Notes under the pieces: model-generated
What the model was told of the DNA's origin: nothing
Databases searched by the model: none
The model's input: only the letters and a program-made list of their open reading frames with translations
Assembly: GCF_019710475.1 (NCBI RefSeq)
Contig: NZ_JAJFAX010000012.1
Coordinates: 1-64,000 of the forward strand
From: Glycomyces sp. TRM65418
GTDB taxonomy: Bacteria; Actinomycetota; Actinomycetes; Mycobacteriales; Micromonosporaceae
Direction of reading: 5' to 3'
Length of the DNA stretch: 64,000 nucleotides
Part shown: in pieces, positions 43,180-64,000 of the stretch
Numbering within the stretch: position 1 is the first letter of the stretch
Layout: each line of letters begins with the position of its first letter
Made by a program: the position numbers and the translations under genes

Positions 43180-43460
43180 ACGGCATCGAATACGAGGACT
43201 TCATGGCATTCATGCAGCGCAGTCTCGCGGCCGACCGGCCCGAGCTCGCCGACATGCCCGTCGGCGAGTTCGCACGCTGCTCCCTCCAGGACGCGGGCGT
43301 CGACTCGCTGGCCCTCACCGAACTGGTGATCAGGGTGAACACCCGCTGGGGCCACGAGTTCAGCGACCGGTTCCTCGCCTCGCCCGAGATCGACGTCCCG
43401 GCGCGCTGGTGGGACCAGGTCGCGGGCAGTACGCACGATTTCGAGAAAGGTGACCAATGA
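43176..43460 (+). CDS. acyl carrier protein
   Basis: A 94-aa carrier protein with phosphopantetheine attachment Ser44 in GVDSLALTEL and the usual four-helix pattern. The start is a TTG overlapping the ligase stop (TTGA), indicating tight co-translation of ligase and carrier. This makes a two-component loading module inside a RiPP operon. Confidence 0.85.
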   Translation: MNGIEYEDFMAFMQRSLAADRPELADMPVGEFARCSLQDAGVDSLALTELVIRVNTRWGHEFSDRFLASPEIDVPARWWDQVAGSTHDFEKGDQ

Positions 43461-44143: not shown

Positions 44144-44149
44144 TCACCG

Positions 44150-48082: not shown

Positions 48083-48165
48083 TGATCGATCGGGTACACG
48101 GGATTCGACCCCGTCGAGCGAGCGGAGCAGGTCGGGGCCCGTGCGGCGGCGATGAACCCGCTGCA
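48083..48165 (+). pseudogene. decayed RiPP precursor (third copy), 5' part
   Basis: Aligns with the first about 80 bp of precursor B, including the upstream AAGAACGGGAGGCGTGCAG. A +1 insertion after about 18 bases shifts the frame, and homology stops at the codons matching MDALIG, where it joins aminopeptidase-like sequence. It cannot make a full leader or the Cys tail. Confidence 0.75.
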
Positions 48166-48703
48166 CCGCCGACAGCGACCTTCCGATCAGCGGGTCCTTC
48201 ACTCCCGCGCAACAAGAGGGCCACATCGTCCTCGCCGCCGAGCGGACGGGCACGGACGCGATCCGACTCGGGGTGAAAGCACGCGCTATCCGCCAGGCGT
48301 GCATTGGGATCCTGGCAGAGGGCCGCCAAGGCCTGGGCCTGCCGCCACCGGAGGGGCGTCCGCGGCCGACGCCCTGCGGCACCGCCGCCGGACGCTCGAC
48401 GGATTCGGCCACATGCTCGGCATCGACGTCCACGACCGCGGCGTCTCACCGCTTGATCGGGTCCGAAGCAGCGCCGTCGGAGGGCGCCGCGTGCTCACCG
48501 TGGAGCTCGGCCGGTACTTTCAGCCCGACGACGAGTTCGTCCCCGAAACGCTGCGCGGGAACGGCATCCGCATCGAGGACCACGTGCACAACGGCTTCTG
48601 GACTCTCTCAGCCGGCCTGCCCCGCACCGCAGCCGAGGCGGCGACCTGGCCTGCTGCGCAGCGAGAAGCCGGCCCGCGCCTTCCACCGGAATACCGAGCA
48701 TCG
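48166..48703 (+). pseudogene. decayed aminopeptidase P, 3' half
   Basis: Nucleotide homology to 45956-46513 begins exactly at the precursor relic junction (CACCGCCGACA) and runs to the equivalent of the stop codon. The catalytic GFGHMLGIDVHD and RIED segments survive, but a small deletion near 48345 changes frame and the 5' half is missing. The fused structure implies a deletion within a second copy of the cluster. Confidence 0.75.
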
Positions 48704-49350
48704 AGTCGACGCCCGGTTCTCATCGGCAGGCGCCTCCTCGAACCGGCGCCTTCACCGTGGGGCCGCGAACCCCGGCACCCGGACAGGCCGTCCACGCGTA
48801 CCGCCCGGTTCGCATACGCCGCTTCCTCGGCAGGCCCGCTCCGTGACCCTACCGTTGGGGCCGGCTCCCTGCCGCGGGCCTTGGCATTCAACGGGCGGCT
48901 TGGTCGCAACAATGTCTGACTGCAGCCGAATCGCCGCATTCGTCGAGTATTTCGGCGAACCTCGTGCACGGTGTCATTCGCCGATCGCCACTCGGAGCCC
49001 CACGGGCATCGTTGCAACGTTCGGCCAAGGTTTCCTGCCGCTTTCCTGCCGCTTTCCCGCCGCTTTCCCGCCTCGTAGATCGCGCGTTCCCCGGCAATTC
49101 GAACTTCGCGCCGGTGCTCGACCGGATTGGGAGCGGTGAGTTCGATCCGGCCGTGCCGGAATGGATCTGGTGCCGTAGAGCTCCGTTGGGAGACAATCGA
49201 AACCGCAATGTTCGATTTGATTCGTCGTTTATTTCAAGGAGCTAGTCTGGATCAAAGTACCGATCGAAAGCGCTGCGTCATCCCGACCGGCCCTCGCCGC
49301 CTGTCCACGGTTATGAGTGGCCCTTCCCCTCGATGCAATAGGAGATACCG
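48704..49350. other. gene-free region upstream of the regulator
   Basis: No supported gene. It contains a short 11-bp tandem repeat (CCTGCCGCTTT twice, CCCGCCGCTTT once, then a partial copy; 49034-49075) and an AT-rich stretch at 49205-49260 with TTGATT and TAGTCT that may hold the promoter of the following LuxR-type gene. Confidence 0.5.
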
Positions 49351-50100: not shown

Positions 50101-50182
50101 TCGCCGCGAGCGGGCGGCCTCCCTGCGACACGCCCAGGATCCGTTGCTTCGGGCGCCGTTCGGAGCGGTATATTTCTAGCTC

Positions 50183-50213
50183 GGGCCCGGGACGTCACTA
50201 GCGTCCCGGGCCC
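50183..50213. terminator. hairpin after azole precursor 1
   Basis: Perfect 12-bp stem GGGCCCGGGACG / CGTCCCGGGCCC with loop TCACTAG, between the convergent regulator gene and the last gene of the minus-strand operon. Likely a shared terminator. Confidence 0.75.
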
Positions 50214-50240
50214 TCGCGAGTGTCACGGCTTTTCTTCGGC

Positions 50241-50432
50241 TCAGGTCGAGGTCAGCGAGCAGCACGAGCAGCCGACGCAGCACGAGCAGGAGTCGCACGA
50301 ACTCGAACTCGACGACGCGCCGGTCTCCGGCAGTGCGACGGCGTCGCGCACCGTGGCGACTTCGATCGCGTCGAAGGACAGGTCGTCCAGGTCGAGGCCC
50401 TCGAAGTCGAATGCAGCAGTCTGAGTGTTCAC
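50241..50432 (-). CDS. thiopeptide/azole-type precursor peptide 1
   Basis: A 63-aa precursor. The acidic leader (FDFEGLDLDDLSFDAIEVATV ... PETGAS, about 1-40) matches thiopeptide leaders, and the Ser/Cys-rich core has seven Cys (46, 49, 51, 52, 55, 57, 58) and ends in LTST. Starts at GTG 50432 with a near-perfect AAGGAGGTG site 6 nt away. If the core begins at Ser45, a second Ser twelve residues on (Ser56) could form a pyridine ring as in lactazole-type thiopeptides. The C-terminal Thr63 matters for the daptide-type enzymes encoded upstream. Last gene of the operon. Confidence 0.9.
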   Translation of the reverse strand: MNTQTAAFDFEGLDLDDLSFDAIEVATVRDAVALPETGASSSSSSCDSCSCCVGCSCCSLTST

Positions 50433-50473
50433 ATCAATCACCTCCTTCCAAAATGGTTTCCGCACTCGACCAC

Positions 50474-50504
50474 GGGCCCGGGATGTCACTAGCGTCCCGG
50501 GCCC
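50474..50504 (-). terminator. hairpin after azole precursor 2
   Basis: GGGCCCGGGATG / CGTCCCGGGCCC (one G-U pair), duplicated counterpart of the 50183-50213 hairpin. Placed between the two precursor genes, it may act as attenuator or mRNA stabiliser. Confidence 0.65.
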
Positions 50505-50531
50505 TCGCGAGTGTCACGGCTTTTCTTCGGC

Positions 50532-50723
50532 TCAGGTCGAGGTCAGCGAGCAGCAGGAGCAGCCGACGCAGCACGAGCAGGAGTCGCACGAACTCGAGGC
50601 CGAGGACGCGCCGGTCTCCGGCAGTGCGACGGCGTCGCGCACCGTGGCGACTTCGATCGCGTCGAAGGACAGGTCGTCCAGGTCGAGGCCTTCGAAGTCG
50701 AATGCAGCAGTCTGAGTGTTCAC
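50532..50723 (-). CDS. thiopeptide/azole-type precursor peptide 2
   Basis: A 63-aa twin of precursor 1; the only amino-acid change is Ser42 to Ala in the Ser run before the first Cys. Leader, seven Cys and the LTST end are unchanged. GTG at 50723 begins one base after the ADH stop; the last codons of the ADH gene (EGGD) encode its ribosome-binding site, so translation is coupled. Confidence 0.9.
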   Translation of the reverse strand: MNTQTAAFDFEGLDLDDLSFDAIEVATVRDAVALPETGASSASSSCDSCSCCVGCSCCSLTST

Positions 50724-50724
50724 A

Positions 50725-52002
50725 TCAATCACCTCCTTCCAAAGGGATTTCCGCACCGGACGGCGTCGCCGCCAGGCGAGGTTCATGGTGAGCGGGGCCT
50801 CCGCTGGCGCTGCCGAAGAACGCCACCAGCTCGGGCCGCTCCACTCCCGAGAGGCGTCCGGTCAGGTGCCAGCTCTCGTGGCATGCCAGGGCCACTCGCT
50901 CGATGTCTATGCCGCCCAGGTCTTCCAGGCACACCGGCATGTCCCAGGCCGCTAGGCGCTGCGACAGTGCTTCGGCGAAGGTCGCCCGTCCCAGCGGGAC
51001 GGCCACGGCGCGGTCGAGGCGGGACAGGCGATCGGCGTCGCCGAGTCGGGGACCGATGGCGCCGCCCCCGCCGATCGCGGCCAGGTAGGCCGGCAGCAGG
51101 GCGCTCATCGTCCTGCCCTTGGGCAGTCCGTAGATGGTGCACAATGGATCTTGCAGGTACCACAGGACGTGGTCGTACCGGCCGCGCCCCAACCCGACCA
51201 GCTGCGTGGCGGAGACCGCTACGATCCACACGAGCTCCGCCCGCGCCTGCGCATCGGCGGGATCGGCGCTCAGGCGATCGAGCGCGGCGAGGCATTGCGC
51301 GGCGAGGGTCTCGGCCAGTGCGTCGGTGACGTCCAGAGCCGCTCCGGCGAGGTAGGGGCAGACGATCCGGGCGAGGGTCTCCACACCGCCTTCGATGACC
51401 GCCGCCGTCGGCAGGGACGCACTCAGGTCGGGATCGATGAGTGCCGATGTCGAGGCCAGCCGGCCCGACACCATCAGCCGTCGCTGCCCTTCATGGACGA
51501 CCGCGGCGACGCTGTTGAGCTCCGAGCCGGTGGCGGTGGTCGTGGGCAGCAGCAGGCTCGGCAGCCCCGGGCGCAGATGGGCGCCCCGCTCCCCGTCGAG
51601 GTCCAGCAGCGGTCCGCTTCGCCATCGATCGCTTTCCAGCAGTTCGAAGTTGGTCGAGGCCAGCGCGGCGAGTTTAGCGGTGTCCATGGTGCTGCCTCCG
51701 CCGATGCCGACGACGAGATCCGCGCCGCAGGCGGTGACCGCGTCGACTGCGGTCACGACGGCGTCCAAGGTGGGCACGCCCGCGACCCGGGTGACGGACA
51801 CGGCCGGGACCCCATGGGCGGAGAGGCGGGCGAGCAGGTCTCGGCCGGTCTCGGATTCGGCCACTCGCGCGTCGATGAGCACTGCTGGCGCCGATCCCAG
51901 TGCCGCCGCCTGCGGGCCCAGGTCCGCCGCGCGCCCCGATCCGAATCCGATGAGGGTCGGCACCTGCCAGTCGACCGCGGTCGCGGGCGGGTTCACGGTC
52001 AT
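50725..52002 (-). CDS. iron-type alcohol dehydrogenase family, daptide-type
   Basis: A 425-aa member of the Fe-ADH family with the NAD-binding GIGGGSTMDTAK and PTTTATGSE motifs. The metal-ligand segments differ from classical enzymes: EGGVETLARIV where DxxxH is expected, and LPKGRTMSALLP where HG is expected, so iron binding is doubtful. In daptide biosynthesis an ADH-family enzyme oxidatively decarboxylates the C-terminal Thr before an aminotransferase acts; the next gene is such an aminotransferase. Overlaps it by 4 bp (ATGA). Confidence 0.8.
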   Translation of the reverse strand: MTVNPPATAVDWQVPTLIGFGSGRAADLGPQAAALGSAPAVLIDARVAESETGRDLLARLSAHGVPAVSVTRVAGVPTLDAVVTAVDAVTACGADLVVGIGGGSTMDTAKLAALASTNFELLESDRWRSGPLLDLDGERGAHLRPGLPSLLLPTTTATGSELNSVAAVVHEGQRRLMVSGRLASTSALIDPDLSASLPTAAVIEGGVETLARIVCPYLAGAALDVTDALAETLAAQCLAALDRLSADPADAQARAELVWIVAVSATQLVGLGRGRYDHVLWYLQDPLCTIYGLPKGRTMSALLPAYLAAIGGGGAIGPRLGDADRLSRLDRAVAVPLGRATFAEALSQRLAAWDMPVCLEDLGGIDIERVALACHESWHLTGRLSGVERPELVAFFGSASGGPAHHEPRLAATPSGAEIPLEGGD

Positions 52003-53267
52003 GACAGGTCCAGTTCGTCGAAGACCTGACCGGCGGCGTCGGCGATGAGCTTCACATCGTCGTCGTCGATGATCAGCGGCGGCATCAGGCTGAAGCCCCG
52101 GTCGGAGAGGTGGACGATCACGCCGAGCGACCGGAACCGCTCCACCACGACCGCCGCCTGCGCCACGTCGACCGTGCCGCCCGGGCCTTGCAGGCCGACG
52201 CCCAGCATCAGGCCGCGGCCGGTGGGCGCGAGCGCCTGGCCGCGAGCGCGCGGCAGGGCGTCGGTCAGCATCGCGGTCAGTCGCTCGCCGGAGCGCAGCG
52301 ATCGGGAGACCAGGTCGTCGGCCTCGATGACGTCGAGCGTGGCCAGGGCGGCCGCGCAGGCCAGTGGATTGCCCGCCTGGGTCTCCCCGGTGCGCAGGAC
52401 GGCGCCGCCCGCGGCGAACGCCTCCCAGACGCGCTGGTGGATCAGGACCGCCGACATCGGCAGGAAGCCGCCGTTGATCCCTTTGGACATGACCAGCAGG
52501 TCCGGTCGCAGGCCCGTCCACTCCGCGGCGAACATCGACCCGGTGCGGCCGAAGCCGGTGGCGACCTCGTCGACGATCAGGCAGATGTCGTTCGCCTCGC
52601 ACAGGTCGTTCAAGCCGGAGAAGAAGTGCTCGTGCGGCACGAGCACGCCCGCCGATCCGAGCACCGGTTCGACGATGACGGCGGCCAGGCGGCCGGCGGC
52701 GGCCCGCAGCCGCTCCAGGGCGTCGGCCGCTCCCCGCTCGTCCAGGGGGGTCGGCACGTGCATGACCGCCGAGCGGTCCACGCCGTACTCGTCCTGTTCG
52801 AGGTCCTCGCCGGTCACGGCCATGGCGCTGTCCAGTGTGCCGTGGTAGGAATCGGCCAGCGCGGCGACCGTGTCGCGCTCGGGCCGGCCGATCAGCCGCT
52901 GGTAGCGGCGGGCGAGTTTGAGTGCGGTGTCGACTGCGCCCGCCCCGGAAGTGTTGTAGAAGACCTTGGTCAGTTCCGGCCTCGGGCTGATCTCCACCAG
53001 GCGGGAGGCCAGCAGTTGGGCCGGTTCGTTGCCGTAGCGGAACAGCGTCCCGTAGGAGAGCCGGTCGAGCTGCGCGCGGATCGCGGCCTGGATGCGCGGT
53101 TCGTCGAAGCCGCAGTGCATGTTCCACAGTGCCGCGTTGGCGCTGACGTACTCCCTGCCGTTCTGGTCGACCAGGCGGCTGCCGCGCCCTTCGGTGATCG
53201 TCACCGGGGAGGAGAGGTAGCGGCCCATGTCGGTCATGGGGTGCCACAGCGGGTAATCGTCGGTCAT
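51999..53267 (-). CDS. class III PLP aminotransferase, daptide-type
   Basis: A 422-aa class III aminotransferase: start YPLWHPMTDMGRYLSSPV, FYNTSGAGAVDTALKLARRY, SYHGTLDSAMAVTG, LIVDEVATGFGRTG and the PLP Lys in LVMSKGINGGFLPMS. By analogy with daptides it would convert the keto group left on the decarboxylated C-terminal Thr into an amine. Overlaps both neighbours by 4 bp. Confidence 0.85.
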   Translation of the reverse strand: MTDDYPLWHPMTDMGRYLSSPVTITEGRGSRLVDQNGREYVSANAALWNMHCGFDEPRIQAAIRAQLDRLSYGTLFRYGNEPAQLLASRLVEISPRPELTKVFYNTSGAGAVDTALKLARRYQRLIGRPERDTVAALADSYHGTLDSAMAVTGEDLEQDEYGVDRSAVMHVPTPLDERGAADALERLRAAAGRLAAVIVEPVLGSAGVLVPHEHFFSGLNDLCEANDICLIVDEVATGFGRTGSMFAAEWTGLRPDLLVMSKGINGGFLPMSAVLIHQRVWEAFAAGGAVLRTGETQAGNPLACAAALATLDVIEADDLVSRSLRSGERLTAMLTDALPRARGQALAPTGRGLMLGVGLQGPGGTVDVAQAAVVVERFRSLGVIVHLSDRGFSLMPPLIIDDDDVKLIADAAGQVFDELDLS

Positions 53268-55147
53268 GCCGTCCTCTTTCCTGCGGGTAGGACACCGGTG
53301 GCGGCCAGTGCCGCTTCGGCGGCGGCGACCGCTTTCGCGGCCGTGGCGGCGGCGAGCCGCCGGTCGCGGGCCAGGGTCTCGGCCGCGTCGTCGGGGCGGT
53401 CGAGCCGGATCTCGACGGCGGCGGCCAGCGCCGGAGCGAGACGGTGGGCGCGTCCCGCCGCGTGAAGGTAGTAGCGGTCGTCGAACTGGAGCATCGCGGC
53501 GGAGGCGGGCCAGTTCGGGCGGCTGGCGGACGCGTGCGTCAGCGGGCCGCCGCAGCCGCTCACCCGCAGCCCGGCCCGTCCGGTCGGTTCGAACAGGCGC
53601 GGGTGCTCGCCGCTGAGGGCGGCCACCGCGAGCGCGGCGTCGAGGACCCGCCCGAGCCAGGGCCGGTCGGCGTCGGCCATGCCCTCGGGGCGGCAGCGGC
53701 AGCCGTTCGCGGCCGCGGGCAGGGCCCGGATCTCGGCACGGAGCGCGTTCAGGTCGTCGCCGGTCTTGCCGACGGCCGGTCCCGCGCGGCCGAGGAGGAC
53801 GGTGCCGTCGGCCTCGACGTACAGTTGCCGTCCGGTCGAGGCCGGGCAGGGGCCGTGGCCGAGGCGGCACAGCCCCGCGACGAGCGCGCCGGGATCGAAC
53901 AGCCGGGAGTGGCATCGGCCGTGGCGCCAGGCCTGGTCGATGTCGACGAGCACCGGCTCGGCCGATTCGATCCAGACCAGGTCCGGTCTGTCGGAAGCGG
54001 TGCCGTATGCGCCCGGGGCGCAGACCTCTTCGATGTCGTGCACCGCCGCGTGCGCGACCGAGGCGGCGTCCGGCCTGCGCGCCCGCACCGTGCCGCCGGC
54101 GTCCACGACCGAGCCGAGCCACCGCTCGTGCGCGGTGACCGGTTCGTCGTGCTCCCACCACAGGTCCTCGACGCCGACGGTCACCGGCGGGGGCGCACCG
54201 CGTCCGGTGCAGGCCCGTTGCAGCCCGGCCCGTGAACGCCGCCGGTCCTCGCGCAGCCGAACGGCGGTGTCGGTCTGCGGCGGACATCCGGCCAGCGCCC
54301 CTCGGGACGACAGCCGGCGCAGGGTGGACAGGTCGGTCTCGATCACGGCGTCGGGGACCGCTCGGAGCAGTGCGGCCAGCCGGTCCGCGGGCCAGTGGCC
54401 CTCCCGCCCCGCGAGAACCCGGACCAGCGGCCGCAGTCGGTGCGCGGCGAACGCGGACAGTGCCGACCGCACTCGCCCGACGTCGGTGCGGTCCGCAGTG
54501 GCCTCGACGGTGACCCCGCCGGTCGCGAAGGACGACACGGCCGCGGCGACCTCCGCGTCGACCGCGTCGGGATCGATCCGGGGATGCAGCAGCGGCAGGC
54601 GCGGGCCCTGGTCGGCCGCACGACGCAGCCGCTCGGCGAGGTCGCGCCAGTCGGTGTCGCCGTTCGCGATGAGCGGCACGGTCATCGACGCCGCCGACCT
54701 GGCGGCGATGTGGCGCAGTTCTTCGATCGTCTCCTCGCCGACCGGGACGCCGAGCCGGGCGGCCTGCGCGGCCGCGACGGCGCCGGAGCGGTAGAGGCGG
54801 CCGAGGTCGGCTTCGGCGACCAGTTCGGGCCCCGCCCCGCCGCGATGGACCAGCCGCGCCCGATCACCGTCCGGTTCGGCGTGCGCGACGGACACGCCGC
54901 GCCCGGCCAGGCCGTCGCCGAGGGCTTCGGCGACCGCCCGTGTCGACCGGTCGCTGACGAGCACGACCGCGTCAGGGCGCGAACGCGCCAGGTCCCGAGC
55001 CCATTCGGGGACCGTCCCCGCCGGCCCGGCCGTCACCAGCCGGGCCCCGGCCGCCGCCGCGACGGCGGCCGCGGCCAGGTCCGGGAAGCAGTCGAGTCGG
55101 CCCCACCGGTTGCGGCGCAGGCGGACCATGAGCACGAGACGCCTCAT
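53264..55147 (-). CDS. 627-aa protein, possibly degenerate radical SAM-like
   Basis: I do not recognise this protein with confidence. The N-terminal 150 residues look like a Rossmann/B12-type domain (LVTAGPAGTVPEWARDLARS; DAVVLVSDRSTRAVAEAL). The middle shows repeated beta-alpha units (GVTVEATADRTDVGRVRSAL; RPLVRVLAG; DAVIETDLSTLRRL) as in a partial TIM barrel, but there is no CxxxCxxC. A later Cys-rich part (CHSRLFD, CRLGHGPCPAS, DGTVLL, CRCRPEG) resembles a decayed SPASM domain. It may bind or present the peptide. Start overlaps the YidC-like stop. Confidence 0.4.
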   Translation of the reverse strand: MRRLVLMVRLRRNRWGRLDCFPDLAAAAVAAAAGARLVTAGPAGTVPEWARDLARSRPDAVVLVSDRSTRAVAEALGDGLAGRGVSVAHAEPDGDRARLVHRGGAGPELVAEADLGRLYRSGAVAAAQAARLGVPVGEETIEELRHIAARSAASMTVPLIANGDTDWRDLAERLRRAADQGPRLPLLHPRIDPDAVDAEVAAAVSSFATGGVTVEATADRTDVGRVRSALSAFAAHRLRPLVRVLAGREGHWPADRLAALLRAVPDAVIETDLSTLRRLSSRGALAGCPPQTDTAVRLREDRRRSRAGLQRACTGRGAPPPVTVGVEDLWWEHDEPVTAHERWLGSVVDAGGTVRARRPDAASVAHAAVHDIEEVCAPGAYGTASDRPDLVWIESAEPVLVDIDQAWRHGRCHSRLFDPGALVAGLCRLGHGPCPASTGRQLYVEADGTVLLGRAGPAVGKTGDDLNALRAEIRALPAAANGCRCRPEGMADADRPWLGRVLDAALAVAALSGEHPRLFEPTGRAGLRVSGCGGPLTHASASRPNWPASAAMLQFDDRYYLHAAGRAHRLAPALAAAVEIRLDRPDDAAETLARDRRLAAATAAKAVAAAEAALAATGVLPAGKRTA

Positions 55148-55767
55148 GCGGGCACCTCCTCGCGGACGCGCGGAAGCCGGGCCGCCGCCCACTGCACGGC
55201 GGCGACGTTCATCGCCATCGTCGTGGTGAAGGGCACCACCATGGCCGCCGGGAGGAACAGGCCGAGACCCGCGAAGATCACCGGAGCCATGTAGCGGGCG
55301 AAGAACCGCTGCCGCGGGTCGTCGACGCCTGAGGCCCGCAACGCCAGGAGCCCGACCACGGTCCCCGCCAGTGTCAGCGCCGCGGCCCACGCCAGGCCCC
55401 CGGGTCCCTGCGTCGCCGGTGAGGACGACAGCGTCCGCAATCCGTAGAACGCCGCCTCGTCGGCGGCCGGGCCGGTTCGGCTCCACAGCGCGATGGTCAC
55501 CACCACCAGGATCTGCGCCACGGTGAAGACCGTGCCGACGCGCTCGAACCATCCGCGAGGGGGCTTCGGCGCGGCCGGGTCGCGCTGGCGCTCGATGCGA
55601 CGCTCGGCGCCGCGTACCAGCCACGGCCAGGTGAGGACCCGCCACCCGGCGCCGAGCAGCAACACCGCCCAGCCCCAGGACACGGCCTCCGGGCCGATCA
55701 CCTCGGCGATCGGCGCGATGATCGACTCGGTCGCCGCGCCGATGCGGTCGAGGAGGTCACTCCACAT
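55144..55767 (-). CDS. YidC/Oxa1-like membrane protein
   Basis: A 207-aa membrane protein with about five hydrophobic segments. WAVLLLGAGWRVLTWPWLVRGAERRIER resembles the first conserved YidC helix and loop, and ARYMAPVIFAGLGLFLPAAMVVPFTTTMAMN the last ones. It lacks the large periplasmic domain. A dedicated insertase in a RiPP operon might help insert the exporter or provide immunity; this is inference. Confidence 0.5.
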   Translation of the reverse strand: MWSDLLDRIGAATESIIAPIAEVIGPEAVSWGWAVLLLGAGWRVLTWPWLVRGAERRIERQRDPAAPKPPRGWFERVGTVFTVAQILVVVTIALWSRTGPAADEAAFYGLRTLSSSPATQGPGGLAWAAALTLAGTVVGLLALRASGVDDPRQRFFARYMAPVIFAGLGLFLPAAMVVPFTTTMAMNVAAVQWAAARLPRVREEVPA

Positions 55768-55819
55768 TGCAGGGCTCCGTTCTGTCAGCGGTCGGGGGTG
55801 GTCGATTGGGGCCGCTCGC

Positions 55820-56629
55820 TCAGCGCTGCGGCTCCCAGGGCATGGTCTTCACGGCTGCGAACATCGCGATCACGCCCCAGGACGCGATGATGAGCAGGTT
55901 CCCCAGGTCGAAGGACCAGCCCGACGCGCCGGGGTCCAGCGGGGCGCGGACGGCCTCGGCCATCGGCACGAACGGGAGGAAGTCCAGGACCGTCTGCATC
56001 GGGCCCGGCAGTCCCTCGACGGGGAAGAACACTCCGGAGATGAACAGCAACGGGAACAAGGTGGCGGTGGAGACGATGAGCGACACCTCGACGGTGGGGA
56101 TCAGACGGGTCACCGCCAGACCGAGCGCGCAGGAGGTGAAGCCGCTCAGCAGCACCGCGAGCAGGAGGGCCGGCAGGCCCATCGGGCGCACCTCCAGGCC
56201 GAACGCGATCAGCGAGACCCCGATCATGATGACCACGGAGACGATCGTGACCACCAGTGAGACGCCGATGCGGCTCATCAGGTGCACCGTCTTGGGCATC
56301 GGCGTCTGCCGGATCCGCTTGAGCACCGATTTCTCGCGAGCGGTCACGATGCCGGTGACCATGTTGAAGTATCCGGACGAGGTGATGACGAAGACGATGA
56401 TGGCCGCGGTCGTCATCTGGACGGAGGCGACGCCGTTGACCGTTTCACCGGACTGCAGCAGATTGAACATCACGTTGAAGAACAGCGGGAGCAGCAGCGC
56501 GATCACCAGGGCGAACGGTGTGCGCGAGGCGCTGATGAGGCCGTAGCGCATGTCGTTGAAGAGCAGTCCGGCGATGCCCCGCCGCTGATCGGACGTCGCG
56601 GTGGGCATCGTGAGTGTCGAGGTGGTCAT
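55820..56629 (-). CDS. ABC-2 type transporter permease
   Basis: A 269-aa permease with six helices and the ABC-2 signature region (FPLLFISGVFFPVEGLPGPMQTVLDFLPFVPMAEAVR). Start overlaps the ATPase stop. Together they should export the mature peptide and/or give self-protection. Confidence 0.88.
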   Translation of the reverse strand: MTTSTLTMPTATSDQRRGIAGLLFNDMRYGLISASRTPFALVIALLLPLFFNVMFNLLQSGETVNGVASVQMTTAAIIVFVITSSGYFNMVTGIVTAREKSVLKRIRQTPMPKTVHLMSRIGVSLVVTIVSVVIMIGVSLIAFGLEVRPMGLPALLLAVLLSGFTSCALGLAVTRLIPTVEVSLIVSTATLFPLLFISGVFFPVEGLPGPMQTVLDFLPFVPMAEAVRAPLDPGASGWSFDLGNLLIIASWGVIAMFAAVKTMPWEPQR

Positions 56630-57597
56630 GAGGTCCTTCCTTCGGAGTCACGGTGGGCGAGGATGGAGAGGTACAGCTCCTCGAGATCGGGGCGTCGGAC
56701 CTCCAGGTCGGCGAGCGCGACATCGCTGTCGACCGCCCAGGTGGTGAGCGCGTGCAGCGGCCCGCGGGCGTCGTCGACGTCCATGGAGATCCGGCCCGCC
56801 TTGAAGCGCGCGCGTTCCGCGAGGTCGGCGGGCAGCCGTTTGAATTCAGCCTCGTCCCCGCGGAAGGAGATGGTGGCCCCTCGCTCGTCCGGCAGGAGGC
56901 TCGACGGGGCGCCGATCGCGGCGACCCGCCCGGAGTGCAGCACCGCCACCCGGTCGCACAGCCGCTGGGCCTCGGTCATGTTGTGGGTGGTGAGGAAGAC
57001 GGTCTTGCCCATGGCGCGAATGGCCTGCACCGTCTCCCAGGCGCGATCGCGGGCTTCGATGTCCAGCCCGGTCGTCGGCTCGTCGAGGAAGACGATGTCC
57101 GGATCGCCGACCAGGGCCAGAGCCAGATCGAGGCGCCGCTGCTGACCGCCGGAGAGACGCCCGACTCGGGCGCCGCTCTTGGAGCTCAACCCCACCAGCT
57201 CGATCACGTCGTCGACCGGGAAGGCCTGCCTGTAGTAGCCCGCGAAGAGCGCCACATGCTCTCGTACCGTCAGGTAGAGCTCGAAGCTCCCCTTCTGGGG
57301 GACGATCCCGAGGCGGTTCCGCACCGTCCGGTTGGCCCGGATCGGGTCCATGTCCAGTACCCTCACCGTCCCCGAAGTGGGCTTGACGTGGCCCTCGAGG
57401 ATCTCGGTCAGCGTGGTCTTCCCGGCGCCGTTGGGTCCGAGGAGCCCGAACACCTCTCCTCGCTGAACAGTCAGGTCCACATCGGCCAGTGCCTGGACCG
57501 GTCCGAAGGACTTGGACAGGCCCTGGACGATGATCGAGTCGGTACTCTCGACGGTTCGGGGGGGTCGGCTTGCGCTTTCAGTCGTTTGCTGTGTCAT
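56626..57597 (-). CDS. ABC transporter ATP-binding protein (DrrA-like)
   Basis: A 323-aa ATPase with Walker A GPNGAGKTT, Q-loop VPQKGSFE, signature LSGGQQRR, Walker B IVFLDEPTTGLD and H-loop TTHNMTEA, plus a C-terminal extension typical of DrrA-type drug exporters. Overlaps the upstream fused gene and the downstream permease gene. Confidence 0.93.
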   Translation of the reverse strand: MTQQTTESASRPPRTVESTDSIIVQGLSKSFGPVQALADVDLTVQRGEVFGLLGPNGAGKTTLTEILEGHVKPTSGTVRVLDMDPIRANRTVRNRLGIVPQKGSFELYLTVREHVALFAGYYRQAFPVDDVIELVGLSSKSGARVGRLSGGQQRRLDLALALVGDPDIVFLDEPTTGLDIEARDRAWETVQAIRAMGKTVFLTTHNMTEAQRLCDRVAVLHSGRVAAIGAPSSLLPDERGATISFRGDEAEFKRLPADLAERARFKAGRISMDVDDARGPLHALTTWAVDSDVALADLEVRRPDLEELYLSILAHRDSEGRTS

Positions 57598-59357
57598 GAA
57601 TGGGAACCTCCATCACTCGTAGTCGCATTCGCGTCGTCTGACGGGGCGCCGATCGGAATCATGTAGCCGATGATTTCGTCGTAGCCGTCCAACTGGGCTA
57701 TCTCGCACACCGCGTCGTCGAAGAAGCCGCCGACCGAGACCGAACGAAGTCCCAGGGCGGTGGACACCAGCAGTAGCGACTGGGCGGCGTGGCCGATCTC
57801 CAGCGTCGCGAAGCGGTGCGCGCGCAGCCCGTAGCGCGGACGCATCCGCCCCAGGTCGGCTCCGATGAACAGGACCGCCGGGACCTCGGCGACCTCGATG
57901 CGCGGTTCGTCACCGAGGAAGAACGGCGAGCTGTAGCGCAGTACGTCGACGTCCGTCGCGGTACCGACCATCTGCAGCTCGTGGGTTCGAGGCAGGTACT
58001 CGTACAGCGCCGGATCGATCCCCTCCACGGCCCTGGCGAGGACGCGCACGATCAGCGGATACGCCATGCCGGCGCTGGGGTTCGCCATGACCTGACGAGG
58101 CGTGGGAGGATCGGCCTCCTCGTACCATTCGGTGTCGACGACGCCCGCGCCGAGCCCGAGCAGGTTCCCGAGCCGATCGAGGCCGAGTCGCCCGGTGAAT
58201 CCGTCGCGGGCGCTGCGGCGCGCGGCGATCACCTCGGCCAGGGGCGCCGCCGCCAAGGCCGGATCGACCGGCGGCAGCGGGACCGCCTCGTCGCTGGCGA
58301 ACTCGAGGACCCGGACGATCGGTTCGCCCTGCCGCGGCTGCTGGTCGCCCATCGTCACCGGTCGGAACTTGCTCAATTCGTGGTAGGCGCGGTCGGGCGC
58401 GGCGGGACCGTCGGCGAAGTAGTCGGGGTACTTCCCCGGGGCGGCGATGAGCAGGGACGCCAGCCAGGCCAGATAGACCTCGTCCGAGGCGGTCATGCCC
58501 ATGCGGTTGTAGATCATGTGCAGGTGCGAGACCATGACCGAGTCGGCGCTGCCCGTCAGTCGCCCCGTCCGACCGAGCTCGCGGAGACGGTCCGTCATCC
58601 GCCCGACCGCGTCCCACCATTGCCGGTATGCGGCGGGAGCCGCTTCCTTCTGCGCGTCCCTGCGCCGCATGAGCTCGAGCCCGGTGGCGACCATCGTCGA
58701 CTCGGCCGCGGCGTGGGTCTGCGCGAAGGTTCGGGCGACGGCCGCGTCGAGGTACCGCCACATGGTCGCGTATTCACGGAGCCATCGCACGGACTCGCTC
58801 GCGGTCGTGTACATCGCCGAGACGAAGCCGAGCAGCAGATCGAGTGCGACACCGGTTCGAGCCTGCTCGCCCGGTGTGCGGGCGATGACGGCCGCGGCCA
58901 GTTCGCTGGAGATGTGGAACAGGTCCTCCGCGGGGCCGATCGCGTCCGGGCCGCCGTAGCGGTCGGTCTCGGGCAGGTACTCGGCCTCCACGACCCGTCC
59001 GTCGGGGTTCCATTCGAGGGCTCGGGCCTCGTCCGCGGGGATCGCGAACTGCTGATAGAACTCCACCGGGTCGAGCCGGGGGGCGGGCTCGGTCGACAGC
59101 GGCGTCTCCAGCGCCGCGCGCATCATGGCCTGGGCGCGGTCGAGCCGTTCCTTGTCGGGGCCCGCCAGGCGGACTCTGACATGCGGTCCGCCTTCCCAGT
59201 AGCGGATGAAGAACCACCTGTCGATGAGGCCCTCCGCGCGCAGGCTGCGGGCCAGCGGTGCGATCGTCGCGGTCACGAGCCGGTCGGCGGCGGCCTTGCC
59301 TCGGTGGCAGAAGACGTGCAGGGCTCGCCAATTTCGGTCTGAAGTGGACTCGGTCAT
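57594..59357 (-). CDS. LazF-like fusion: dehydratase C domain + SagB-type dehydrogenase
   Basis: A 587-aa two-domain protein. Residues 1 to about 290 are a SpaB_C/thiopeptide-type domain (WRALHVFCHRGKAAADRLV; WFFIRYWEGGPHVRVRLAG) that eliminates glutamate to form dehydroalanines. From about 350 the sequence is an FMN-dependent SagB-type nitroreductase (RRSARDGFTGRLGLDRLGNLLG; ALGLRSVSVGGFFDDAV) that oxidises azolines to azoles. The same order occurs in LazF of lactazole. A partner glutamyl-transferring LanB is not inside the window and may lie beyond the right edge. Confidence 0.85.
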   Translation of the reverse strand: MTESTSDRNWRALHVFCHRGKAAADRLVTATIAPLARSLRAEGLIDRWFFIRYWEGGPHVRVRLAGPDKERLDRAQAMMRAALETPLSTEPAPRLDPVEFYQQFAIPADEARALEWNPDGRVVEAEYLPETDRYGGPDAIGPAEDLFHISSELAAAVIARTPGEQARTGVALDLLLGFVSAMYTTASESVRWLREYATMWRYLDAAVARTFAQTHAAAESTMVATGLELMRRRDAQKEAAPAAYRQWWDAVGRMTDRLRELGRTGRLTGSADSVMVSHLHMIYNRMGMTASDEVYLAWLASLLIAAPGKYPDYFADGPAAPDRAYHELSKFRPVTMGDQQPRQGEPIVRVLEFASDEAVPLPPVDPALAAAPLAEVIAARRSARDGFTGRLGLDRLGNLLGLGAGVVDTEWYEEADPPTPRQVMANPSAGMAYPLIVRVLARAVEGIDPALYEYLPRTHELQMVGTATDVDVLRYSSPFFLGDEPRIEVAEVPAVLFIGADLGRMRPRYGLRAHRFATLEIGHAAQSLLLVSTALGLRSVSVGGFFDDAVCEIAQLDGYDEIIGYMIPIGAPSDDANATTSDGGSHS

Positions 59358-60676
59358 TGGCGCACATCCAGCAGCAGGTCGATGAATCGACTGGCGCCCA
59401 TCAGCGCCAGGTAGATCGGCAATTGCGTCGAAGGCAGCCCCAGGTCGGCCGCGAGGGGGTCGGGATCGAAGCTGCGCGCCGGGCGCAGGAACCCGCGGTG
59501 CGGGGTGATGGACATGCCCGCGGCCTGCGCGGTCGCGCCCATCTGGAGTTGGAGCGCTCGCAGGCCTCGCTCCCCGCCCGCGCGGATGGCCGCGTCGTGG
59601 TCGCAGATCATCAGCAGCGCCGCGGGGCAGCCGGAGACGGCCATCTGCTCGGGCGGATACGAGAAGGACCGCTGCACCGCCGCCATGTCGGGGCCCGCCA
59701 CGGGCCGCGGCGGCCGGCCCGGCTCCAGCCGGTAGCAGCCGGGCTCGAACCCGTCCACCTGCCGCGCGATGAGAACGAAGTCGATGCCGCCCTCGGCGGC
59801 CGTAGGGACCGCGGCGGTCGTTTCGGCGACCGCGCGCAGGACCGCGGCCATGGCCTCGGCCGGGAGCGGGACCGGCGCCGGGGTGTACCCCTTGTTGGCG
59901 CGGCCGGCGGACCGCTCGAACAGCACCTCGGACCAGCTCATGCCGGTGCGGTGGGCCGGTGCGGGGCGGTGCGGCCGGTCGGCGGCCTCGCCCAGCTCGA
60001 TCACGGCGGCCGGAATCCAACCGTCGGCCGCTCGCAGGCCGAGTCGGTCCAGCAGCGGCGCGTCCGGCAGGTCATGGCGCAGGCGTACCGGCAGGCCGTG
60101 CGCGTGTGCGGCCTGTGCGAGCAGTTCGCTCAGATGCCCTGCCTCGCACAGGCTCAAGCTCCAGCGCAGTTCCCGGTACCGGGTCGGGATGCTGCCCAGG
60201 TGGCTGATGACGGCGAGTCGGGCGCCGCCCTCCAGGGCCGCATCGAGGTCGGCGTGGTCCGACACGGGCCACAGGCGGTGCCCGGCCGCGTCATAGTGCC
60301 AGGCGCCGCCTGCGGCCAGCAGGAACACCTGCGCCGAGAAGAAGCAGTGCGCCGCGGGATAGGCGCGGTGCGGGTTGACCGCGCTGCGGACCTCGAACCG
60401 CTGCGGGGCCGAGGCCGCGATCGTGCCCAGCACCCGCTGTCGCAGTGGGGTCGCCGAGTCCACGCCGCCGCCGGGGTAGGCCGCGTCCTCCAGCATCCGG
60501 TGCAGGCCGGCGGGCAGCGGCACCGCCGGTCCGGTCGGCTCGACCGGCACGCGGACGCGGTCGTCGCCGTCGGTGGCGATGTCGAGCAGCAGCGGCCGGG
60601 CGATCCGGTCGGCGAATCCACGGAGGTGCTGGTCATCGATATCGGTTGCGGCCCAAGGCGGGTCGACGACTTCCAT
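59354..60676 (-). CDS. second SagB-type azoline dehydrogenase-like protein
   Basis: A 440-aa protein composed of two nitroreductase-like halves (AHCFFSAQVFLLAAGG; SLCEAGHLSELLAQAAHAHGL; then GRANKGYTPAPVPLPAEAM and LQLQMGATAQAAGMSITPHRGF). Likely a divergent SagB-type dehydrogenase or an inactive partner of the domain in the adjacent fusion. ATG at 60676 has GAGGAG 6 nt upstream; its stop overlaps the fusion gene start. Confidence 0.7.
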   Translation of the reverse strand: MEVVDPPWAATDIDDQHLRGFADRIARPLLLDIATDGDDRVRVPVEPTGPAVPLPAGLHRMLEDAAYPGGGVDSATPLRQRVLGTIAASAPQRFEVRSAVNPHRAYPAAHCFFSAQVFLLAAGGAWHYDAAGHRLWPVSDHADLDAALEGGARLAVISHLGSIPTRYRELRWSLSLCEAGHLSELLAQAAHAHGLPVRLRHDLPDAPLLDRLGLRAADGWIPAAVIELGEAADRPHRPAPAHRTGMSWSEVLFERSAGRANKGYTPAPVPLPAEAMAAVLRAVAETTAAVPTAAEGGIDFVLIARQVDGFEPGCYRLEPGRPPRPVAGPDMAAVQRSFSYPPEQMAVSGCPAALLMICDHDAAIRAGGERGLRALQLQMGATAQAAGMSITPHRGFLRPARSFDPDPLAADLGLPSTQLPIYLALMGASRFIDLLLDVRQ

Positions 60677-60687
60677 GTCGGCTCCTC

Positions 60688-62619
60688 TCACGGGAAGGGG
60701 TGGGGTGGGGCGGTGTCGGGGTCGACCGGCGAGTCGGAGGGGTCGCGGTAGCCCAGGCGGACCGGCAGGCTGCGCAGGCGGTCGAGCCCGCGGGTGCGCC
60801 GGTACACGTGGCCGAAGGTCATCGGGATCGTCTGGGGCACGATCATCTTGACCGTCGCCGGGGTCCGCTCGGTGGTGATCCGGTCGGTCTGGTCGACGAC
60901 GATCGGGTCCATGCCGTTGGCGGTCATCCGTTCGACGACGGCGAGCAGGACGTCCGTGAGGTCGGGGCGGATCCATCGGGACCGCCAGTCGCCGTAGGCC
61001 TCGGCGAGCGTGGCCGGTGCCGCCCGGGGGTCCAGGAACGACCACCAGGACCTGGTCTCGGGGTAGTTGTAGAGGATCGTGTGGTCGTGGAGGGTGTGCA
61101 CCCGCCGCGGGTCGTCGATCAGGCGGCGGCCGTCCTTTTCCTGCTCGGCTCGGGTCTCGGCGGGCATGCGGTTGCGCACCACGCAGTTGGTGACCGCTTC
61201 GGTCGCGGCCGAGGCGACCGCCCGGCGCGGATCGCAGTGCGCTCCGGCCGCGAAGAACGCGACCGGCCCGTCGTCGTCGCGCCGCAGCGCCAGGCTCATC
61301 ACCGCCGGGATCTCCAGTTCGGTGGTGATGTCGAACAGGTGCAGGTCGTAGCCGAGCCGGTCGAGCTGCGTCCGCATCCCTCGCAGGCTCGGCACTTCGG
61401 CTTCGTCCACACGCAGCGGCCGGGCCGGGCGCTTGGTGTACCAGGCCAGCAGAAAGGCGTCGCGTTCGACCACTTCGAACAGTCCGTACAGGCTCGCCTC
61501 CTCCACCGAGGATCCGATGGCGCAGCCGTTCGAGCTCTCGTACAGGAACTTCGGCGAGGGCGGTCCGGTGCGGCCCCATCGGTCGAGATGCCAGTAGGCG
61601 ACGTGCTCGGGCACCAGGACCGGCCGCCGCGCGCCGAGCCGGAAGCCCCACACCCAGTCGATGGGCGTGTCGGGATCGTACGGGCTCAGGCGGAAGTCCG
61701 GATCGTCGCCGCTGCCTTCGACATGCAGGCCGAGTTCGCGCAGGTCGACCGCTTCCGGCAGCGCGTTCTGGCTGCCGCGCACGACGGTGCGCTTGCCGTG
61801 GGGGCTGGAGGAGCTGAGCCTCTCCAGCGCCTCGTAGAGCGCGATGGTCTCGCCCTCGGGATAGGTCAGGGCGCGGCCGTGTCCGGCCTCGCCGGGTTCA
61901 CCGCTGGGCAGGGCGAGTTCGGCGCTGGTCAGGGCCATCACCGAGTTCTCGGAGCGGTAGACGTGGCCGACCGGCCCGTACCGCCAGTCGTGGACGAGGT
62001 CTCGCAGTTCGCTCCCGCTCAGCCCGGAGGCGTTGGTGCGGAACGACTCGGGGTCGGCCTGCGGGCGCGGGGCGAAGGCGACCCGGGCCAGGTCGGCGCT
62101 GTCGTCGGGGACGGGACGGCAGCCGGGGCAGCCCGGCAGCGGCGTCATCCGGTGGATCCGGCCGGTCAGCCGGCCGGTCGAGACGTGAATCTCCCTGTCG
62201 GCCAGCAGGTCATGGCGCAAGGCGCGGTCGGTGATCGCGGCGAGGTGCCGCAGATGCGCGGACGTCAGCGCGAGCGCCGGGACCGGGCCGTCGAGCTGCT
62301 CGGCCGGGGCGTTCTGGCGGCGCCACAGCCGTCGGCGCCGCTCGGCGCACACCTGGCACCCGGGCGTGCCGGGCCGGACCCAGGGGCCGACGATCCCCAG
62401 GTCGCCGACGATCCTGGCGGGCAGGACAGCGGCCTCGCGCAAGGCCTGCTGTTCGGCGCCGTCGCGTTCGGGGTCCCAGCCGTCGCGGGCGAGCACGACG
62501 GTGTCGCCGGTGGTGACCGCGGCGTCCTGGGCGCTCGGCACGGAGGCGTCGTAGCAGCCGGACAGTGTGTCGGCCAGTGTCTCGTGCAGGCCGCCCTCGC
62601 CGATGAGCCAGGTCGTCAT
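60688..62619 (-). CDS. YcaO cyclodehydratase with N-terminal leader-binding domain
   Basis: A 643-aa TOMM cyclodehydratase. The N-terminal about 220 residues are an Ocin-ThiF/leader-binding type domain with PGCQVCAERR and GCPGC zinc Cys pairs. The YcaO domain follows (EGETIALYEALERLSSSSPHGK; GCAIGSSVEEASLYGLFEVVERDAFLLAWY) with ATP-binding Glu residues, and the C-terminus ends in the YcaO PxPxP motif (PHPFP). It should convert core Cys (and perhaps Ser/Thr) to azolines using ATP. Start overlaps the upstream E1-like gene. Confidence 0.93.
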   Translation of the reverse strand: MTTWLIGEGGLHETLADTLSGCYDASVPSAQDAAVTTGDTVVLARDGWDPERDGAEQQALREAAVLPARIVGDLGIVGPWVRPGTPGCQVCAERRRRLWRRQNAPAEQLDGPVPALALTSAHLRHLAAITDRALRHDLLADREIHVSTGRLTGRIHRMTPLPGCPGCRPVPDDSADLARVAFAPRPQADPESFRTNASGLSGSELRDLVHDWRYGPVGHVYRSENSVMALTSAELALPSGEPGEAGHGRALTYPEGETIALYEALERLSSSSPHGKRTVVRGSQNALPEAVDLRELGLHVEGSGDDPDFRLSPYDPDTPIDWVWGFRLGARRPVLVPEHVAYWHLDRWGRTGPPSPKFLYESSNGCAIGSSVEEASLYGLFEVVERDAFLLAWYTKRPARPLRVDEAEVPSLRGMRTQLDRLGYDLHLFDITTELEIPAVMSLALRRDDDGPVAFFAAGAHCDPRRAVASAATEAVTNCVVRNRMPAETRAEQEKDGRRLIDDPRRVHTLHDHTILYNYPETRSWWSFLDPRAAPATLAEAYGDWRSRWIRPDLTDVLLAVVERMTANGMDPIVVDQTDRITTERTPATVKMIVPQTIPMTFGHVYRRTRGLDRLRSLPVRLGYRDPSDSPVDPDTAPPHPFP

Positions 62620-64000
62620 TGTCCGGTTCCGTTCCGTTGCAGGCCCACCCAGCCGATCACACCGAGCGCGTCGAGCGCGGGTTCGCCTCGCCAGCGGGCG
62701 CCGCCGATCCGCTCGTCCTCGCCGCACAGCGCCGCGAGCGTCTCGTCGCCGTGCCAGGCGGGGGCCTCGACGGCGTCGGGTGCTCCGGGCGGGGTGTCGA
62801 CGATCGGGACCGTCGGCCGGTCGCCACCGGCTTGCAGGACCGCGGCGGCGTGCCGGGACACGACCCGGCGGGCGACTTCGCCGTCGGGGTGGGCGAAGAC
62901 GGCCACGCGTCGGCCTTCGGCGAGGGCCGCGGCCACGGTCAGGTCCGGGACCCGGAGCGGGTGCCGCACTTCGAGCGTGACCGCCGGATCGCTCCGGTCG
63001 ATCTCGTCGACGGCGGGGCCGAACCGGTTCCGGCGCTCGTCCTGGTCGTCCAGCCAGGCTGCCGCCAGACGGTTGACCGCGTCGCACAGCATCGCGTTCG
63101 CATCCGCACCGGCACAGGCGATGCGGGTCGAAGCCTGCATCGCCTCGCCACCGGCCAGAGTCCACAGACTGGTCGCGTCGGCCCGACCGGCCGCGTTCCG
63201 GGCCGCGCCGAGGGCCGCGCGATAGCGGGCGACGTCGCCGGTCTCGCCCCAGCCGAACGCGTCCGCGCCGGCGGTCGCCAGCGCCAGCGGCATCTGGGAG
63301 AGCTCGCCGTCGTCGGTGGCCGGGAGGATGCCGGTGACGCTGTCGCACAGGTCGGTGATGCGGTCGGGGTCGGTGTCGGCGGGCAGGTGCGGGTCGACCG
63401 GTTCGGCCACGGTGCGGCCGTGCGGGGCGACGGGGTGGACGGTGGTCTGGATCCGCTCGGCCTCGATGAGGTACGCCTGGCCGTCGTATTCGGTGCTGAC
63501 TCCGGTGAGGGCGTAGAACGCCTGCATCGCGGCGAGGTTCCCCGCGAGGGTCGCGGCGACCGCCGGTACCGGTCCGATGGCGGTGTCGAGGCCCCGGTCC
63601 CGCATCCGTTCGAGCACCGTGGAGAGGCCGGCGTCGCCGTCCCGTTCGCGCAGGGGCGCGATCACCGCGCGGTCGCGCAGTTGGGCGACGCCGATCGTGC
63701 CCGAGGCCGGCCCGGGCGGCGGCTGGGCGGTGTCGACGTGGATGCGCACCGGCGCCTCCGCCTCGCGGCCGGGCCCGAGCTCGGCGCCGGTCTCGGCCGC
63801 CAATCTCCGCAGCGCGTCGGAGGGTTCGTCGATGCGCAGTCGTCCGGCGCCGAGGCTGAGCAGGCTTCGGGCGGCGGCCTCGGCTACGGGGCCTTGGCCG
63901 TGGATCGCGATCGGGTGGTGCCGCAGCCGGTCGAACGCGGCAGTCGGGTCGTCCGCCGCGGAGTCCAGGAACGCGAGGGTGCGGCGGTGATCGGGATGGA
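62616..64000 (-). CDS. E1-like (ThiF-fold) TOMM partner protein, partial
   Basis: The frame is open to the right edge, so the N-terminus is missing. A TTG within the frame at 63803 is not a believable start, because coding continues upstream with HPIAIHGQGPVAEAAARSLLSLGAGRLRI, a ThiF-type nucleotide-binding motif. The rest (461 codons in window) lacks clear catalytic residues. In thiopeptide clusters a leader-binding E1-like protein works with YcaO. It overlaps the ycaO start by 4 bp. Confidence 0.65.
   Translation of the reverse strand, partial: HPDHRRTLAFLDSAADDPTAAFDRLRHHPIAIHGQGPVAEAAARSLLSLGAGRLRIDEPSDALRRLAAETGAELGPGREAEAPVRIHVDTAQPPPGPASGTIGVAQLRDRAVIAPLRERDGDAGLSTVLERMRDRGLDTAIGPVPAVAATLAGNLAAMQAFYALTGVSTEYDGQAYLIEAERIQTTVHPVAPHGRTVAEPVDPHLPADTDPDRITDLCDSVTGILPATDDGELSQMPLALATAGADAFGWGETGDVARYRAALGAARNAAGRADATSLWTLAGGEAMQASTRIACAGADANAMLCDAVNRLAAAWLDDQDERRNRFGPAVDEIDRSDPAVTLEVRHPLRVPDLTVAAALAEGRRVAVFAHPDGEVARRVVSRHAAAVLQAGGDRPTVPIVDTPPGAPDAVEAPAWHGDETLAALCGEDERIGGARWRGEPALDALGVIGWVGLQRNGTGQ

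Follow-up and report, generated by a model that had tools for sequence, protein, structure and literature searches.

The 14-gene operon of Glycomyces sp. TRM65418 described here is best read as a thiopeptide pathway that carries a C-terminal module of the daptide type, by which the terminal Thr of the precursor would be converted to an aminoacetone and further to a 1,2-diaminopropane unit with a free amine. We put the probability of this reading at roughly three in four. The window, i.e. the whole stretch of DNA that was analysed, comprises positions 1 to 64000 of a 112,788-base contig (NZ_JAJFAX010000012.1) in the 5.09-Mb genome. The operon lies on the minus strand, runs from 68118 to 50241 and extends beyond the window edge at 64000. 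A first-pass annotation of the window had proposed a hybrid of this kind and was right in substance.

Thiopeptides are potent inhibitors of Gram-positive bacteria whose clinical use is hindered by low water solubility (PMC11406533). The combination of thiopeptide and daptide genes is already in print, with one sentence each in two papers: Ren 2023 (PMC10036551) describes YcaOs and thiopeptide-like pyridine synthases encoded in major subgroups of daptide clusters, and Dommaraju 2025 (PMC12670281) mentions thiopeptide-type genes in daptide clusters. The gene combination behind the hybrid, which the first-pass annotation did not recognise among known compounds, has thus been noticed before. Our literature search, with subscription papers and supplements outside its scope, found no characterised thiopeptide-daptide product and no published text containing the core sequences.

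The thiopeptide part of the operon

In order of transcription, the operon encodes LanB (892 aa), a pyridine synthase (382), an E1-like protein (560), YcaO (643), a SagB-like protein (440), a LazF-like fusion (587), an ABC ATPase (323), an ABC permease (269), a probable membrane protein (207), a 627-aa protein, an aminotransferase (422), a dehydrogenase (425) and two 63-aa precursors. At 11 of the 13 junctions, neighbouring genes overlap by 4 bases or are separated by no more than 11; the remaining two gaps measure 52 and 99 bases. Since the gene order is kept in a second species, Glycomyces tenuis DSM 44171 (NZ_ATYW01000001.1), at 58-82% protein identity and with a single precursor gene, a chance grouping is excluded.

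The azole-forming enzymes, i.e. YcaO (TIGR03604, 263.2 bits) and the azoline dehydrogenase domain of the LazF-like fusion (TIGR03605, 86.4 bits), score above the cut-offs of their families, as does the elimination domain of the same fusion (TIGR03891, 143.1 bits). Together with LanB (PF04738, above its cut-off) the latter constitutes a split LanB system. The pyridine synthase, probably of the TbtD/PbtD type, matches NF045556 over its full length (E 1.4e-46) with 159.3 bits against a curated cut-off of 325; of the 39 class genomes with a match to this model, 31 likewise stay below the cut-off. No family model in NCBIfam or Pfam recognised the E1-like protein, whose role is suggested by its place and by our reading of its sequence. 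Judged by sequence, the cluster appears to be a complete thiopeptide gene set in one operon, and its product is most likely a macrocyclic thiopeptide. The YcaO, E1-like, SagB, LazF-like, alcohol dehydrogenase (ADH) and class III aminotransferase genes listed in the first-pass annotation are all present on the minus strand, and the LanB and pyridine synthase genes that it expected to the right of position 64000 were found there. Owing to these two genes the product should be a thiopeptide rather than merely a Cys-derived polyazole peptide; the amino C-terminus that had been predicted along with the polyazole is supported by the sequence data given below.

Lactazole- and thiomuracin-type clusters (gene names LazB-F and TbtB-G) share with this operon the YcaO protein, the E1-like partner, the split LanB, the elimination/SagB fusion of the LazF type and, probably, the type of pyridine synthase. 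The operon differs from them by the additional DapB/DapC/DapD-type module, by a second SagB-like protein and by a Thr-ended tail for amination.

The precursor genes start with GTG at 50432 (A1) and 50723 (A2), each behind an identical ribosome-binding site, GGAAGGAGGTGATTGAT; these are corrected starts. A leader of the thiopeptide type, reading FDFEGLDLDDLSFDAIEVATVRDAVALPETGA, is followed by a Cys/Ser-rich core that is the same in both peptides, their single difference being a Ser to Ala exchange immediately ahead of the core in A2. Both pass the thiazolylpeptide model NF033400 and fall below the cut-off of 25 bits for TIGR03892 (22.1 and 21.9 bits). The core, most likely SCDSCSCCVGCSCCSLTST, has 19 residues, as has its G. 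tenuis counterpart SCDSCSCCGATSCCSLSST, with Ser1, Ser12 and Thr19 common to both. All three precursors therefore end in Thr, as had been noted for the two in the window. Ser1 and Ser12 are most likely the ring-forming pair, by analogy with the lactazole ring, which has the same Ser1-Ser12 spacing. The two genes lie in a tandem repeat of 284 bp (50182-50465 and 50473-50756, 96.5% identical) that includes the ribosome-binding site. With only one precursor gene found in G. tenuis, the duplication may be recent.

Daptide-type proteins in the operon and in other loci

For three adjacent proteins, the ADH, the aminotransferase and the 627-aa protein, the best NCBIfam match is a daptide model (DapC, DapD and DapB type, respectively), and the same holds in G. 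tenuis. As far as their sequences indicate, they are diverged relatives of the daptide enzymes. In the ADH, residues E208, R212, W281 and K295 occupy the four alignment columns that we take to be the metal-ligand sites of the iron-dependent ADH family, and G. tenuis likewise has E, R, W and K. The same four residues are found in 14/14 ADHs inside daptide loci, in the ADHs of all six thiopeptide loci with a DapC/DapD pair and in those of both loci with DapC only (see below). Metabolic ADHs carry D, H, H and H instead (5/5 including row L216, which was added later; 4/4 without it). One ADH that does not lie on the contig of its DapB (L072, genome G258) was relabelled from metabolic to daptide on the strength of this signature; it is excluded from the 14/14 count and included among the 15 daptide rows of the ADH tree. 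In line with the loss of ligands, TfDapC was active without added metal and its metal ligands are substituted in a model of the protein (Dommaraju 2025, PMC12670281). Of all single signs of an oxidative decarboxylase of the DapC type, this agreement at the level of residues is the strongest.

Phylogenetic trees point in the same direction. The daptide and thiopeptide rows are split from the metabolic rows both for the ADH (25 versus 5 rows, support 100/99.9) and for the aminotransferase (23 versus 13 rows, 98/95.7; one DapD, of G258, was left out as it is cut by a contig end), the latter split being the weaker one owing to long branches. Clustering with unrelated metabolic enzymes, which the first-pass annotation had named as a refuting result, was hence not observed: in these unrooted trees both proteins separate from the metabolic paralogues, and an unrelated metabolic origin is rejected by the trees together with the ligand signature. 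A single clade of all thiopeptide ADHs has a support of only 70/38, and for the thiopeptide aminotransferases the data neither establish nor refute such a grouping (approximately unbiased test, p = 0.115).

Canonical daptide genomes are here the 16 that score above the cut-off of the daptide model NF041823 for the RiPP recognition element (RRE). The top match to the window aminotransferase lies inside the daptide locus in 14 of them (exceptions: G258, contig end; G320, paralogue) and that to the window ADH in 13 (exceptions: G258, on another contig; G529, a metabolic ADH), no ADH match being found in G270. Within the loci, an aminotransferase match occurs in 16/16 and an ADH match in 14/16, while none of the 16 contains a match to the pyridine synthase, LanB, LazF or YcaO proteins of the window; the pyridine-synthase match of one of these genomes (G440) is on another contig. 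In the window genome itself, the nearest paralogue of the aminotransferase passes the BioA cut-off.

The 627-aa protein, whose gene at 53264-55147 had been left unnamed by the first-pass annotation, is DapB-like at its C-terminus. In hhalign, its residues 387-601 match a profile built from 13 DapB sequences with a probability of 99.2 (E 2.5e-19), and residues ~550-616 show in both models a pattern of three strands and three helices compatible with an RRE. The profile (alignment A3) leaves out three of 16 sequences (L012, masked bases; L016 and L020, partial), and alignment A6 uses eight of its 13. The N-terminal ~385 residues belong to no NCBIfam or Pfam family. According to a structure comparison they are perhaps a dead scaffold with a barrel resembling that of cobalamin-dependent radical SAM enzymes, without the CxxxCxxC motif; the models are poor and we regard it as a lead only. 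Within the genus, the 627-aa protein was found in 2 of 22 genomes, counting the window genome, and G. tenuis provided the only relative in a search of genome contigs. Three further matches among 394 class genomes concern the C-terminal part and all lie in daptide loci; 72,556 plasmid and 50,697 phage records yielded none.

Other thiopeptide loci carry parts of this module. A pyridine-synthase match was present in 39 of the 394 class genomes, and 25 loci from 21 of them were compared; many of the uncompared matches span only about model positions 1-275. Two of the 25 loci are on contigs shorter than 12 kb, and in one (L143) none of the query proteins had a match. The pair of ADH and aminotransferase was found in one of the 25 (L142), whose pyridine synthase is above the TbtD model cut-off. 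Searching the genus of L142, another actinomycete genus, with an ADH alignment gave a close match (>430 bits) in 6/40 genomes, and all six loci (L142, L209-L213) carry thiopeptide genes, ADH and aminotransferase. In this they resemble the Glycomyces operon; they differ by having no DapB-like match and by cores ending in CCPCCCCS where found. Their precursors are very Cys-rich, ending in CCSCCSCCPCCCCS in five of the six loci; in the sixth locus (L213), which is fragmented, no precursor was found. Two further loci, L214 (6373-14054) and L215 (522-17999), have LanB, elimination and YcaO matches together with a DapC-type ADH, but no aminotransferase match in ~20 kb. The pyridine-synthase match is weak and partial in L215, and there is none in L214. 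Their precursors pass NF033401 and end in Thr, with the cores SCVGTACTCSSTSSST and SCTTTGCACSSSSSST. We take SCTTTGCACSSSSSST to be the TP-1161 core, and both loci presumably resemble that of TP-1161. Each carries a gene for a resistance methyltransferase of the NshR/TsnR type, and L214 adjoins what appear, by eye, to be genes for a ribosomal protein and an elongation factor.

Proposed pathway and competing explanations

In the pathway that we infer, YcaO, its E1-like partner and the SagB domain would convert the core Cys residues to thiazoles, LanB would glutamylate Ser and Thr residues, and elimination by the LazF-like protein would give dehydroamino acids. The pyridine synthase would join two dehydroalanines, most likely those derived from Ser1 and Ser12, thereby releasing the leader. 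At the C-terminus, the DapC-like and probably metal-free dehydrogenase, assisted by the putative RRE of the DapB-like protein, would turn Thr19 into an aminoacetone amide by oxidative decarboxylation. The DapD-like aminotransferase would then replace the ketone by a primary amine, which gives a 1,2-diaminopropane tail; L-Lys is the amine donor reported for daptides. The series of loci with DapC only, with DapC and DapD, and with DapB, DapC and DapD fits this order of steps.

Whether the amine is methylated was judged from the daptide methyltransferase model NF041820. Its cut-off is exceeded within the daptide locus of 16/16 canonical genomes and in neither Glycomyces genome, and the search that was positive in all canonical loci gave no match in the window locus. 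Moreover, no methyltransferase was found in the window operon or among the seven flanking proteins scanned, which bears out the first-pass annotation on this point. As the locus has no daptide methyltransferase, we predict that the amine stays primary. Such a gene was not seen in any of the thiopeptide loci of the other two kinds either: in L142 and L209-L213, no match above the cut-off lies in the locus. Two genomes of this group (G561 and G554) have a match above the cut-off; it is megabases away from the thiopeptide locus and no more than 1.5 kb from another, separate ADH match.

Canonical daptide systems (Mpa, TfDap, SaDap) resemble the operon in their DapC- and DapD-type proteins and probably in that of the DapB type, in the C-terminal Thr and in the lost metal ligands of DapC. 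They differ in that the window has no DapM in the locus, a thiopeptide leader, a Cys-rich core and a DapB-like region fused to ~385 extra residues. Up to the transamination, the proposed pathway follows that of the daptides. We do not class the cluster as a daptide cluster, since it lacks the methyltransferase and the daptide leader motif and its scores stay under the curated cut-offs.

Several points weigh against the thiopeptide pathway with a daptide-type tail. The daptide models, against which the first-pass annotation had suggested searching the ADH and the aminotransferase, are indeed the best ones, yet the scores of these two and of the 627-aa protein remain below the curated cut-offs, in G. 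tenuis as well. Function is here transferred over a considerable distance, the identity to proteins from daptide loci being 27-34% for the ADH and 32-40% for the aminotransferase. In the unrooted trees the thiopeptide rows sit between the daptide and the metabolic rows, as the window ADH did in an earlier, smaller tree, and the daptide rows alone also form one side against thiopeptide plus metabolic rows (100/98 for the ADH, 100/100 for the aminotransferase). Kinship with DapC and DapD therefore assumes a root among the metabolic rows. For the thiopeptide ADHs, a place on the daptide side is favoured by the shared loss of ligands. About 100 N-terminal positions of DapB find no counterpart in the 627-aa protein, both with the family model and with hhalign, and a methyltransferase whose gene lies at another site of the genome could act in trans. 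In the six loci with a DapC/DapD pair there is no tblastn match to the DapB-like protein, and the eight precursors from five of them end in Ser, a residue not accepted by canonical MpaC (Ren 2023, PMC10036551). Neither is the daptide leader motif named in the same paper, ELExMEAP, present in the A1/A2 leader.

An unlikely alternative is that the pathway stops at the ketone or the corresponding alcohol and that the aminotransferase is used otherwise or only in part. The aminoacetone of TP-1161 and YM-266183 is the product of oxidative decarboxylation of a C-terminal Thr, and thiocillin-type clusters use short-chain dehydrogenases; the known products of this type are not known to involve an aminotransferase step. 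Thiopeptides bearing an aminoacetone, these two among them, are known compounds (PMC7345825), and L214 and L215, with Thr-ended precursors and a DapC-like ADH unaccompanied by an aminotransferase, might produce such molecules. In the window, however, the aminotransferase gene overlaps the ADH gene, its product is 81% conserved between the two Glycomyces species, and it falls with DapD in the tree. The very existence of loci without aminotransferase makes it a separate addition that has been kept.

It is quite improbable that the ADH and the aminotransferase make or modify a small-molecule building block, e.g. an amine joined later, rather than the peptide. Their relatives of solved structure are, by name, small-molecule enzymes; but the metal ligands are lost in the manner of daptide enzymes, a DapB-like protein adjoins, Thr is the last residue of all three Glycomyces precursors, and among the open reading frames of the operon we recognised neither a ligase nor a condensing enzyme. 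Least credible is N-methylation by an enzyme encoded elsewhere, giving the thiopeptide a dimethylated tail like that of the canonical daptides (PMC10036551, PMC12670281): a weak NF041820 match ~6 kb from the G. tenuis operon (86.7 bits, cut-off 175) has no counterpart in the first 100,000 bases of the window contig, the best match in the window genome (74 bits) is on another contig, and matches below the cut-off mean little because they occur in 11 of 14 control genomes as well.

Gene coordinates, surroundings and implications

The coordinates of all 14 genes and the evidence for their assignment are summarized in Table 1.

Table 1. Genes of the Glycomyces operon in order of contig position
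Gene product	Position	Strand	Evidence
Precursor A1, 63 aa	50241..50432	-	GTG start; NF033400 thiazolyl_B 42.2 bits, cut-off 30
Precursor A2, 63 aa, tandem duplicate of A1	50532..50723	-	NF033400 42.0 bits, cut-off 30
DapC-like dehydrogenase (Fe-ADH family) without iron ligands	50725..52002	-	NF041822 daptide_DH 162.7 bits, cut-off 300
DapD-like class III aminotransferase	51999..53267	-	NF041821 daptide_amino 374.8 bits, cut-off 450
DapB-like protein, 627 aa	53264..55147	-	NF041823 daptide_RRE 69.4 bits, cut-off 150
Probable membrane protein, 207 aa	55144..55767	-	Hydrophobic segments by eye; 70% identity in G. tenuis; no NCBIfam or Pfam match
ABC-2 permease, DrrB-like	55820..56629	-	TIGR01247 42.6 bits, under its cut-off
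ABC transporter ATPase, DrrA-like	56626..57597	-	TIGR01188 236.3 bits, under its cut-off
LazF-like fusion: putative glutamate elimination (SpaB_C/TIGR03891) and SagB-type azoline dehydrogenase	57594..59357	-	TIGR03891, TIGR03605
Second, diverged SagB-like protein	59354..60676	-	TIGR03605 22.3 bits, below cut-off 78.4
YcaO cyclodehydratase with N-terminal leader-binding-type domain	60688..62619	-	TIGR03604 263.2 bits, TIGR03882 68.6 bits, both above cut-off
Putative E1-like cyclodehydratase partner	62616..64298, crossing the window edge at 64000	-	Position, overlap; 67% identity in G. tenuis
Pyridine synthase, outside the window on the same contig	64295..65443	-	NF045556 159.3 bits, cut-off 325
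LanB glutamylation subunit, outside the window on the same contig	65440..68118	-	PF04738 89.7 bits, cut-off 28

Outside the operon, the frame at 48152-48919 resembles, by eye, a degenerate version of the C-terminal region of the Xaa-Pro aminopeptidase whose intact gene lies at 45065-46513 (e.g. LTVELGRYFQPDDEFVPETLRGNGIRIEDHVH) and seems to be a duplicated pseudogene remnant. Adjoining genes at 43457-44938 encode a 2-oxoglutarate- and Fe(II)-dependent oxygenase and a protein resembling aspartyl/asparaginyl beta-hydroxylases. Beyond the window, positions 70608-76547 of the contig encode a protein of 1979 aa that contains Laminin_G_3 and FG-GAP repeats and looks like a secreted repeat protein; it is followed by a frame of 2313 codons at 76764-83705.

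Across the loci, a broader proposal suggests itself, which we regard as tentative and, in its entirety, rather doubtful. Thiopeptides may have taken up the daptide tail module in grades: DapC alone (aminoacetone), DapC and DapD acting on Ser (ethylenediamine-type), and DapB, DapC and DapD acting on Thr (1,2-diaminopropane, in Glycomyces), the result being a kind of thiopeptide whose tail is free and basic; the DapB part of the Glycomyces protein might sit on a barrel scaffold of the cobalamin-radical-SAM-like kind devoid of the iron-sulfur motif. The C-terminal Ser of the precursors from L142 and L209-L213 would predict an ethylenediamine-type tail for their products.

Both the apparent completeness of the operon and its counterpart in a type strain, G. 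tenuis DSM 44171, make the claim open to direct testing. If it is true, a free primary amine on the tail of a thiopeptide would provide a scaffold that is charged, easy to derivatise and probably more soluble, and the tail chemistry of daptides would be seen to work on an extensively modified peptide from a different class.

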